Shown piece after piece: positions 3 through 4,754 of a stretch of DNA of 64,000 nucleotides. A program made the translations under genes and the position numbers. The notes under the pieces were generated by a model. The model was not told where the DNA came from, made no database searches, and saw only the letters and a list, made by a program, of their open reading frames with translations. Position 1 is the first letter of the stretch, and each line of letters begins with the position of its first letter. Source of the stretch: Saprospiraceae bacterium (GTDB lineage: Bacteria; Bacteroidota; Bacteroidia; Chitinophagales; Saprospiraceae); assembly GCA_020628095.1 (NCBI GenBank), contig JAHDFP010000016.1, forward strand, positions 1 to 64,000, written 5' to 3'.

Positions 3-3000
3 GATGGAAGAAATGGTCGTGACGGTGTAGACGGTCAGGACGGCGAAAATGGAGCTGACGGTAGAGACGGCGTTGATGGTCAAGATGGTCGTAACGGTGT
101 AGATGGCGAAAACGGCGCTAACGGAGCAGATGGAAGAGACGGTGTCGATGGCGAAAACGGTGCTGACGGTAGAAATGGCGTTGATGGTGAAAATGGCGCT
201 AATGGAGCAGATGGAAGAAATGGTATCGATGGTGAAAACGGTGCTAACGGACGTGATGGAGTTGATGGAGAGAATGGTGCAAACGGTGCTGATGGAGCCA
301 ACGGTCGTGACGGTGTCGACGGAGAAAACGGTAGAGATGGCGTTGACGGTCGAGACGGTGCTAACGGCGCAAATGGCCGCGATGGTACAAATGGTGTCGA
401 TGGACAGAATGGTGCTAACGGAGCTGACGGTAGAGATGGTGTTAACTGTTGGGATACTGACGGTGACGGTGTCAACGATGCTTCTGAAGATACAAATGGT
501 GATGGCGTATTTGACGCTTCTGATTGCCAAGGTGCGGATGGCGCTAACGGTAGAGATGGTGTCGATGGTCAAGATGGAAGAAATGGTCGTGACGGTGTAG
601 GCGGTCAGGACGGAGAAAATGGTGCAGACGGTAGAGACGGCGTTGACGGTCAAGATGGTCGTAACGGTGTTGATGGCGAAAACGGTGCTAACGGAGCTGA
701 TGGAAGAAATGGTATCGATGGTGAAAACGGTGCTGACGGACGTGATGGAGTTGATGGCGAAAATGGTGCTAACGGTGCTGATGGAGCCAACGGACGTGAC
801 GGCGTAGACGGAGAAAATGGAAGAGATGGTATCGATGGTGAAAACGGAGCAGACGGTAGAGATGGAGTTGATGGCGAAAATGGTGCTGACGGAAGAGATG
901 GCGTTGACGGTCAGGATGGTCGTAACGGTGTCGATGGTGAAAACGGCGCAGACGGTAGAGACGGCATTGATGGAGAGAATGGTGCTAACGGAGCAGATGG
1001 TGCCAATGGTCGTGACGGTGTAGACGGAGAAAACGGAAGAGACGGCGTTGATGGTCAAAACGGTGCTGATGGTCGTGACGGTACAAATGGTGTCGATGGA
1101 CAAAATGGTGCTAACGGAGCTGACGGTAGAGATGGCGTTAACTGTTGGGATACTGACGGTGACGGTGTTAACGATGCTTCAGAAGATACAAATGGTGACG
1201 GCGTATTTGACGCTTCTGATTGCCAGGGTGCTGATGGCGCTGACGGTAGAGATGGTGTCGATGGACAGAATGGTAGAGATGGTCGTGACGGTGTAGACGG
1301 TCAAGACGGTGAAAATGGTGCTAATGGCAGAGATGGTATTGATGGTGAAAATGGTGCTGACGGAGCTAACGGACGTAATGGTGTCGATGGCGAAAACGGT
1401 GCTGATGGAAGAGATGGCATCGATGGAGAGAATGGTGCTGACGGTAGAGATGGCGTTGATGGTCAAGATGGTCGTAACGGTGTAGATGGTGAAAACGGTG
1501 CTGATGGAGCTGATGGAAGAAATGGTATTGATGGAGAGAATGGTGCTAACGGAGCCAATGGAGCTAACGGTCGTGACGGTATAGACGGGGAGAATGGAAG
1601 AGACGGCGTTAACGGTCAGGATGGTCGTGACGGTATTGATGGAGAAGATGGTGCTAATGGCGAAGATGGAGAGAATGGTAGAGACGGTGCTGACGGTCAG
1701 GATGGCCGTGACGGAGCCAATGGAGAAAATGGTGCAGATGGAAGAAACGGTGCGGACGGAAGAAATGGTAGAGATGGTCAAAACGGAAGAGACGGTCAAA
1801 ACGGTCGTGATGGAATTAACTGTTGGGATACAAATAGAAATGGCGTCAATGATCCTGAAGAAGATGTTAATGGAGATGGTAGATATACTACTAGAGACTG
1901 CGAAGGAGATGATGGTAGAGATGGTCGTGACGGAAGAGATGGTCGTGACGGAGCCGATGGCCAAAATGGTAGAGACGGTCAAGACGGAAGAGATGGGCGT
2001 GATGGAAGAGACGGACGTGATGGCTACAACTGTTGGGATGTCAACCAAAATGGCTTAAATGATGCAAGTGAAGATGTTAACGGAGATGGAAGATTCACTA
2101 CTGAGGATTGTAGAGGAGAAGATGGTCAGAACGGAGTAAATGGTCAAGACGGCCAGAACGGAAGAGATGGACGTGATGGAGTTGATGGTCAGAATGGAGA
2201 AAACGGAAGAGACGGTGTAGATGGAAGAAACGGAGAAAACGGCGTAGACGGTAGAGATGGCGTTGACGGAGAAAACGGAGCTGACGGTGCAAATGGTAGA
2301 GATGGTATCGATGGCGAAAACGGAGCTGACGGAGTCAACGGTAGAAATGGTGTTGACGGCGAAAACGGTGCTGATGGCGCTGACGGTAGAGATGGTATCG
2401 ATGGTGAAAACGGTGCAAATGGAGCCGACGGTAGAGATGGTGTTGACGGAGAAAACGGAGCTAACGGACGTGACGGTGTTGATGGAGAAAATGGTGCTGA
2501 TGGAAGAGATGGCGTTGACGGTCAAGATGGACGTAACGGTGTAGATGGCGAAAACGGTGCAAATGGACAAGATGGTAGAGACGGTGTTGATGGAAGAGAT
2601 GGTCAAGACGGTATTAGCTGTTGGGATACTGACGGTGATGGCATTAATGATGCTAACGAAGACACGAATGGTGACGGACTATTCAATGCTGATGATTGCC
2701 AAGGTACTGATGGTGCTGACGGTAGAGATGGTGTTGATGGCCAAGACGGAAGAGACGGACGTAACGGTGTAGATGGAGATAACGGTGCTGACGGTAGAGA
2801 TGGCGTTGACGGTCAAGATGGTCGTAACGGTGAAAACGGAGCAGACGGAAGAGACGGACGTAATGGCGTCGATGGTGAAAACGGTGCTGATGGTTCTAAC
2901 GGTAGAGACGGCGTTGACGGTCAGGATGGTGCTGATGGACAAGATGGTAGAAATGGTGTTGACGGTAGAGATGGTAGAGACGGTATCAGTTGCTGGGATA

Positions 3001-4754
3001 CAGATGCAGATGGCGTTAACGATGCTAACGAAGACACGAATGGTGATGGACTATTCAATGCTGATGATTGCCAAGGTACTGATGGTGCTGACGGTAGAGA
3101 CGGCGTTGATGGTCAAGACGGTAGAAACGGACGTAACGGTGTAGATGGAGATAACGGTGCTGATGGTAGAGATGGCGTTGACGGTCAGGATGGTCGTAAC
3201 GGTGTAGATGGAGACAACGGCGCAAACGGTAGAGACGGACGTAATGGCGTAGATGGCGAAAACGGTGCTGATGGTTCTAACGGTAGAGATGGCGTTGACG
3301 GTCAGGATGGTGCTGATGGACAAGATGGTAGAGATGGTGTTGACGGTAGAGACGGAAGAGATGGTACTGACTGTTGGGATCTTGATGGAGATGGTGTTAA
3401 TGACGCCAACGAAGACACCAATGGTGACGGTCTATTCAATGCTGATGATTGCCAAGGTGCTGATGGTTCTAACGGTAGAAACGGAGCTGACGGTCAAGAT
3501 GGAAGAGACGGCGTAAATGGACAAAACGGACGTAATGGCGTAAATGGTCAAGACGGTGCCAATGGTGCTAATGGCCGTGACGGTGTAGACGGAGACAACG
3601 GAGCTGACGGTAGAGATGGACGTGATGGCGTCGATGGTCAGAATGGTAGAGACGGTGTAGATGGTAGAGACGGAAGAGATGGTACTGACTGTTGGGATAC
3701 TGATGGTGATGGTATCAATGATGCGAACGAAGACACGAATGGTGACGGAATATTCTCAGCTGCAGACTGCGAAGGTGCTCAGGGTCCTAGAGGTATCCAA
3801 GGTGAGCAAGGAGAAAGAGGTGATAGAGGAGAGCAAGGTCAGACAGGTGCTGATGGTAGAGATGGCGTTGACGGTCAAGACGGACAGAACGGACGTGACG
3901 GTCAAGATGGAAGAGACGGTGTAGATGGGCAAGATGGTGCTCAAGGTATACCTGGACCAGCTGGTCAAGACGGTGCTGACGGTAGAGATGGTAGAGATGG
4001 TAGAGATGGACTTGACGGTAGAGACGGATTTGATGGAATCAACTGTTGGGATACTGATGGTGATGGCATTAATGATGGAAACGAAGATGTCAATGGAGAC
4101 GGTCTATGGAATGTAGATGACTGTGAAGGTGCTCAAGGTCCTAGAGGTATCCAAGGTGAGCAAGGAGAAAGAGGCGATAGAGGTCCTCAGGGACTACAAG
4201 GTGAGCAAGGAGAAAGAGGTCCAGTAGGATTACAAGGCCCTCCAGGAATCCAAGGTGAAAGAGGTCCTCAAGGTATCCCGGGTGAAATCGGTCCAGAAGG
4301 TCCTTCAGGTCCATCAGGTGCTCCAGGTCCTCAAGGTGAAGTTGGTCCTCAAGGTATCCCAGGTCCTGCAGGTGGATTGAATGCTAAGAAAGATACTTTC
4401 TGCATTCCACCATTAGTAGGTTCTAGAGTTGGTGATACTGGTGAGTTCGTATTAGGATCTTGTTTTGATACAGTACAGTGGACTATAGAATTAATAGAGA
4501 CTGCGGACATATCTACTGGTCAGATGGCTGGTATGAGAGTTACTTATGAGTTTGATGATATTGACTTAGATGTAATGTGTGCACACTTTGCATGTTACAT
4601 GGATAACATCAATAACACAAAAGGATTCTCGATCTGTCAAGTAGGTCAGATTACTGACACAGGATTTACTGTGTACATTAACAGAACAGATATGATAGAG
4701 GACTGGGACGAAAAAGCCTTATTTAACGTCTTATACTTCTACGGACATTTTTAG
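3..4754 (+). CDS. Giant collagen-like protein with EF-hand-type inserts (5' end outside window)
   Basis: Reading in frame 3 gives one uninterrupted frame of 1583 visible residues, entering from the left edge and ending at TAG 4752-4754. Most of it is Gly-X-Y triplets whose Y residue is almost always Asp or Asn ([18 protein letters not shown]). Nine inserts of about 27 residues start with Cys-Trp-Asp and end with Asp-Cys; their first Cys codons are at 447, 1143, 1821, 2031, 2619, 2991, 3372, 3690 and 4044. Each holds two DxDGDGxxDxxE/DxNGDGxxDxxD calcium loops, as in EF-hands, dockerins and thrombospondin type 3 repeats. From about 3777, and mainly 4125-4376, triplets become classical proline-containing collagen. 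The last ~125 residues form a Cys-containing globular domain that I do not recognise; it could be a trimerisation or anchoring head. No T9SS sorting domain is visible. Inference: an extracellular, calcium-stabilised triple-helical fibre. Confidence 0.9.

Follow-up and report, generated by a model that had tools for sequence, protein, structure and literature searches.

The contig edge and the missing half of the gene

What kind of protein is encoded by the long, repetitive reading frame that begins at the very edge of the 64,000-nucleotide stretch of Saprospiraceae bacterium DNA analyzed here (the window), and is it a real gene? The frame occupies positions 3 to 4754 of the plus strand and, as was claimed when only the letters had been read, stays open for 1583 codons until its stop. 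The Pfam Collagen profile (PF01391) matches it in 25 stretches with an E-value of 7.2e-179 (580 bits against a cut-off of 27.2), and its uninterrupted Gly-X-Y runs of 14 to 68 triplets place it among the bacterial collagen-like proteins. The only in-frame ATG, GTG or TTG codon between 3 and 4754 is a TTG at 4377, so the window holds no usable start. This is a consequence of assembly and no property of the gene, since base 1 of the window is the first base of its contig, C27, and the start was found on another contig, C30.

The prediction also warned that a simple gene caller would miss the frame or call out-of-frame shadows. Long shadow frames are indeed present on both strands of the repeat region, and those of the minus strand (3–1103, 1179–2048 and 2055–2606) are a trap for gene callers; however, a caller that accepts genes truncated by a contig edge would detect the true frame. 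Among the ten copies in this genome of the 27-residue insert described below, nine in the window and one on C30, differences number 520 at third codon positions, 257 at first and 190 at second positions. Such a bias is expected of a protein under selection and argues that the coding frame is not a product of chance.

When one insert with its flanks was used to search the genome, all the additional matches lay at the end of contig C30, except for a weak match to a large protein that is unrelated. The C30 frame begins at position 1800 of locus L037 with an N terminus that, by inspection, resembles a signal peptide. A head of two similar Cys-containing units follows, and then Pro-rich collagen. 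The frame contains three inserts of the form SAYxxWL...DFxxSLxG and one of the form CWD...DC, and the contig runs out 22 nt after a further CWD...DC insert has begun. Extension to the left, proposed as a check, has thus supplied a start, a putative signal peptide, a head, classical collagen and a further insert. The three SAYxxWLxxGNxGTExDFxxSLxG-like interruptions, at L037:2499–2642 and 3135–3206 within the classical collagen of C30, are a second kind of insert, which also occurs at loci L041 and L099.

The final 100 nt of C30 align with window positions 1065–1164 (nine mismatches), and the first 100 nt of the window align, with five mismatches, to a stretch that begins 43 nt past the end of insert 1. 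From these matches in repeat register, the smallest fitting gap between the contigs would be 102 nt, which would keep the frame and give a protein of about 2,309 aa with 11 inserts. The same glycosyltransferase gene precedes the N-terminal half in three congeners (G001, G004 and G012). One of them, G004, has both halves, and there the C-terminal half has the right-hand neighbors seen in the window, the type IX secretion (T9SS) gene and an acyltransferase gene. In other genera, intact homologs of 1421 aa (L092), 938 aa (L096) and 962 aa (L103) unite the head, the inserts and the C-terminal domain within a single frame. The matching gene order in the congeners and these one-frame homologs argue for a real single gene. 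The gene so reconstructed from sequence is at least about 2,300 residues long, running across C30 and C27 over an unsequenced gap.

Might the frame nevertheless be a chimeric contig end, or a decaying repeat pseudogene? All the same-genus copies read break at contig edges, and the assemblies are of the metagenome (MAG) type. Against this stand the open 1583-codon frame, the third-position bias of its divergence, the intact homologs and a longest exact repeat, within the window part of the gene, of only 53 nt, so that we give this explanation almost no weight. As far as it has been sequenced, with its start and putative signal peptide on C30, the gene is not a pseudogene.

An acidic rod without proline

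The eight Gly-X-Y runs that precede insert 8 (positions 3–3689, plus strand) comprise 344 triplets, of which 341 have Asp or Asn at Y and none contains Pro. They are followed by a mixed rod at 3774–4043 (30 triplets, 5% Pro) and by classical proline-containing collagen at 4128–4379, where Pro fills 27% of the X and Y positions of the last 28 triplets, ahead of a C-terminal domain with five Cys. Over all runs in the window, Asp or Asn stands at Y in 360 of 402 triplets (90%). The predicted lock on Asp/Asn and the predicted classical ending are therefore both present in this gene, but the lock does not extend to the family. Its congeners, which keep the inserts and the C-terminal domain, have Asp/Asn in 0–25% of the Y positions, and a more distant copy has 56%; of the 96 frames with inserts that come from other genomes, none that has at least 100 triplets exceeds 80%. 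Judged by these sequences, what the family conserves is the inserts together with both ends, and the Asp/Asn rod is a specialization peculiar to the copy in the source genome.

Does such a rod form a triple helix? A beta solenoid had been named as the alternative that would overturn the collagen assignment. The aliphatic residues of the rod show no periodicity of 6 or 9 residues; those at X are depleted at a spacing of 6 and flat at 9, which speaks against a hexapeptide helix or an RTX roll. Together with the trimer-associated ends found in relatives, this favors a triple helix, as predicted.

Asp and Asn at Y have poor host–guest values for the triple helix, and the rod could accordingly be marginal at growth temperature. 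It has been considered, then, that the Asp/Asn tract may be an extended, or polyproline-II-bundled, acidic linker, that only the Pro-containing ends trimerize, and that the whole would soak up calcium like a sponge, in soluble or slime-like form. The absence of Pro from 344 triplets, the near-fixed Asp/Asn at Y, a net charge of about −263 per chain and the low stability index of these runs (calculated from host–guest values) are all in keeping with it. However, Gly recurs strictly at every third residue over the 344 triplets, the Pfam Collagen match stands at 7e-179, and in the congeners this part of the protein consists of standard triplets with Pro. Moreover, the rod of streptococcal Scl2.28, low in Pro and rich in Lys and Asp, behaves as collagen and melts as such at 35.6 °C (PMC8968730). 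We regard the linker as unlikely, and a triple-helical rod remains the reading that we carry forward. A Pro-free Asp/Asn rod offers, in any case, a natural test of what sequences a triple helix can tolerate.

A 27-residue module with two putative calcium loops

Interruptions in collagen are already known. Those of the window are of one kind, the CWD...DC insert, of which nine were predicted and nine were found, nearly identical to one another, every one exactly 27 residues long and with two EF-type loops. All on the plus strand, they lie at 447–527 (from residue 149), 1143–1223 (from residue 381; the same 27 residues as insert 1), 1821–1901 (607), 2031–2111 (677), 2619–2699 (873), 2991–3071 (997), 3372–3452 (1124), 3690–3770 (1230) and 4044–4124 (1348).

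In the insert, a first loop, DxNxNGxxDxxE, is joined directly to a second, DxNGDGxxNxxD. Across 196 distinct inserts from the wider scan described below, both loops have the 12-residue EF pattern (D/N at 1, 3 and 5, G at 6, D/N/S/T at 9, E/D at 12). Only positions left free by the search pattern were counted as evidence for EF loops, and these are strongly conserved: N/D at insert positions 5 and 7 in 196 of 196, G8 in 93%, D11 in 94%, and N/D/T/S at position 23 in 196 of 196. The size is equally constant, 213 of the 228 modules at the scan loci having exactly 27 residues. Gly-X-Y runs of at least three triplets flank 170 of the 228 on both sides and a further 48 on one side. A common register is kept by 151 of 209 modules, in which the insert is entered after a complete triplet and left one residue before the next Gly, so that 28 residues are inserted into the Gly-X-Y repeat.

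No Pfam family describes the insert, and the EF-hand, dockerin and TSP3 profiles all remain below their cut-offs. The dockerin profile (PF00404) reaches at best 16.1 bits against 22.9, and the insert has 27 residues where two loop–helix units of a dockerin take about 60; the TSP3 profiles PF02412 and PF18884 reach 10.4 and 15.6 bits against 25, with a best E-value of 0.015. It is not an EF-hand proper (PF00036 and relatives) either, since its loops adjoin without the helices of a helix–loop–helix. An AlphaFold2 (AF2) model of the isolated insert is a compact coil, with moderate pLDDT of about 80–87 in its core and a single helical turn of three residues. Neither Foldseek nor VIA found a solved counterpart of this model, and the best matches among sequences of solved structures are to isolated loops of EF or dockerin type. 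The original prediction knew of no described family with this combination of features, and in the open-licence papers searched, likewise, neither the insert nor any such collagen of Saprospiraceae is described.

Since the Cys residues that open and close the module stand at the ends of Gly-X-Y runs, an intrachain disulfide between them would close it into a side loop. The main rival to this arrangement is that the Cys residues link the three chains to one another in the manner of a cystine knot, the inserts being covalent locks and the EF loops flexible, calcium-responsive bulges. In animal collagens, interchain knots are found at the ends of Gly-X-Y runs, every insert Cys abuts the very end of such a run, and a Pro-free rod would gain from covalent locks between its chains. 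However, two Cys per chain at a strict 27-residue spacing, conserved together with the loops, suit a closed loop equally well, and relatives with Pro-rich rods retain the same Cys pair, which argues against interchain locks. Interchain linkage is rather doubtful, less so than the acidic linker, and we continue with the intrachain loop.

It is tempting to propose that the CWD...DC module is a portable, undescribed, disulfide-closed domain with a double EF loop, set at a fixed register into the collagen helices of many phyla, where it would form calcium nodes that control stiffness or assembly, and that the Asp/Asn-only rod seen here is the extreme of the same principle. We hold this proposal to be a serious possibility, at slightly less than even weight.

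The C-terminal domain

The last 125 or so residues of the frame (positions 4380–4751, plus strand) had been singled out as a unit of their own, and this has been borne out: the AF2 model, built from ten sequences, is a confident eight-stranded beta sandwich (pLDDT 88.4, pTM 0.83). The domain recurs with convincing E-values at 26 places within Saprospiraceae, and in an even draw of the family it occurs in 19 of 298 genomes. Most of these copies contain inserts, and a few partial copies show none.

What might this head bind? Foldseek returned no match at E ≤ 0.001. With VIA, discoidin II, the Helix agglutinins, the R1 pyocin fiber head and the ends of phage tail spikes gave Z scores of 5.2–6.2, and rotavirus VP5 and shrimp-virus envelope proteins gave up to 6.8, a range that is common for unrelated beta sandwiches and lies below proof of homology. 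The H_lectin family (PF09458), whose VIA matches have a Z of 5.8–6.2, gives a weak sequence match (E = 0.083, 13.5 bits against a cut-off of 24). Because many of the VIA matches are trimeric receptor-binding heads, and given the weak H_lectin match, it is reasonable to guess, though not to claim more, that the head is lectin-like.

The resemblance to pyocin and phage tail-fiber heads raises the idea that the protein is a fiber of a phage-tail-like or contractile-injection particle, not a cell-surface adhesin. Insert-bearing collagens in some viral contigs, and Peptidase_S74 ends in relatives, would agree with it. On the other hand, the protein has a putative signal peptide and belongs to a conserved pair with a T9SS cargo gene; the flanking genes read (acyltransferase, GTPase, SMC-like) are cellular, with no phage genes seen among them, and good matches are absent from phage records. 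A phage-type fiber is therefore very improbable, and an exported adhesin is the alternative that we retain.

A T9SS partner gene

Immediately downstream, at 4836–5894 on the plus strand, lies a gene for a 352-aa protein with a T9SS type A sorting domain (TIGR04183, 23.3 bits against a cut-off of 23); the corresponding Pfam family, Por_Secre_tail, falls just under its cut-off. The source genome encodes SprA (2005 bits) and, besides, over a hundred T9SS cargo proteins. With TIGR04183 above the cut-off in a T9SS genome, the partner is classed as type A cargo. A homolog of the partner is the next gene on the same strand, at most 133 nt downstream, in all 26 of the convincing places of the C-terminal domain. 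An insert-bearing collagen of Flavobacterium lacisediminis has a different C terminus, and after it comes a distant homolog of the partner that carries a CHU_C sorting domain. The constant association with a T9SS cargo gene suggests a route, open to testing, by which the giant collagens of Bacteroidota may be exported or anchored. The same genome also encodes, at locus L043 (contig C11, 340000–348204), a protein of at least 2733 aa with many SdrD-like repeats, DxDxDG loops and a T9SS tail.

A model for the fiber

The closest known systems each share a part of this architecture. Lcl of Legionella is a trimeric lollipop with a triple-helical stalk and a glycan-binding head, and its aggregation is driven by divalent cations (PMC11162425). 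Like the protein described here, it has an N-terminal region, a collagen-like stalk and a C-terminal head (PMC11162425); it differs in its short stalk, in that no Cys/EF inserts have been reported and in the lack of a T9SS partner, and a PDB sequence search gave no match between the two heads. The streptococcal Scl1 and Scl2 proteins (NF038329/NF038330) also have a hydroxyproline-free collagen rod with many Asp and Asn, and NF038329 scores 563 bits on the window protein against a cut-off of 325, a score driven by repeat composition. However, they have a Gram-positive cell-wall anchor, no inserts and a different head. No LPXTG motif follows the rod in the translated part of our protein, which ends with the beta domain and a stop in a Gram-negative T9SS genome.

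Loop 2 of the insert, DTNGDGxxNxxD, has the residue pattern of a type I dockerin loop, but the insert loops stand back to back, are helix-free and Cys-bracketed, and lie inside collagen. Thrombospondin type 3 repeats, including the bacterial TSP3, likewise have tandem short calcium-loop patterns without helices, but their spacing and Cys placement are unlike those of the insert. Finally, the head resembles H-type lectins (discoidin II, Helix agglutinins) in its beta sandwich, with a VIA Z of about 6, below proof of homology. The gene may thus be seen as a variant of the bacterial collagen-like proteins whose insert module seems to be undescribed.

With the Lcl lollipop plan as a precedent that supports a trimeric adhesin, we propose that the window frame is probably the C-terminal two thirds of an exported, trimeric collagen-like adhesin fiber with calcium-loaded nodes, made together with its T9SS partner. 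The signal peptide would take the chain through the inner membrane. The two heads, the small N-terminal one and the C-terminal beta sandwich, would set three chains in register, and the short Pro-containing collagen beside each head would nucleate and clamp the triple helix, with the long, highly acidic, Pro-free rod held between these segments. A disulfide between the first and last residues of each module would close it as a side loop past which the helix continues. Each node would then consist of three loops and hold up to six calcium ions. Calcium would make the nodes rigid and screen or bridge the acidic rods, and adhesion or aggregation of the cells would become calcium-dependent. The C-terminal head would be the likely ligand binder, the ligand probably being a glycan, and the T9SS partner may serve as a surface anchor or export aid for the collagen.

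Distribution of the module

The insert pattern at its fixed span occurs 10 times in the source genome, always in the collagen gene, and it has no copy in an even draw of 394 other members of Bacteroidota; the module is thus sparse. A scan of 84,980 species genomes passed 291 places, of which the best 80 were kept; the query carried Gly-X-Y flanks, which may bias the search toward collagen. These best 80 of 291 come from about seven phyla, mostly from MAGs, whose contamination could inflate the list of phyla. The Bacteroidota among them belong to many families, and named isolates include Flavobacterium lacisediminis, [Muricauda] meishanensis and Lentiprolixibacter aurantiacus; the other carriers, again among the best 80 of 291, are MAGs of Deinococcota (Thermaceae, Deinococcales), Planctomycetota, Chloroflexota, Nitrospirota, Gammaproteobacteria and Kaiserbacteria. 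Should this spread hold true, a conserved calcium-loop module shared by phyla such as Bacteroidota, Deinococcota and Planctomycetota would add a new kind of unit to bacterial collagens and would lend itself readily to collagen materials that calcium can switch.

Other insert-bearing collagens of Bacteroidota end in Peptidase_S74, an intramolecular chaperone of trimeric fibers. The module also occurs in nine viral contigs; phage and plasmid records gave no good match to the insert. In three of the viral loci (L187, L188 and L189) the loops of the module contain one more pair of Cys, as in the variant CFDLNANAECDEDEDVNGDGVCDALDC. Large numbers of modules per protein are seen at L121, an insert-bearing collagen with 21 modules and 3315 aa that is still open at its contig end, and at L128, with 13 modules. 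At L168, in a Woeseiaceae MAG, the module adjoins, in one frame, a multihaem cytochrome-like region with many CxxCH motifs.
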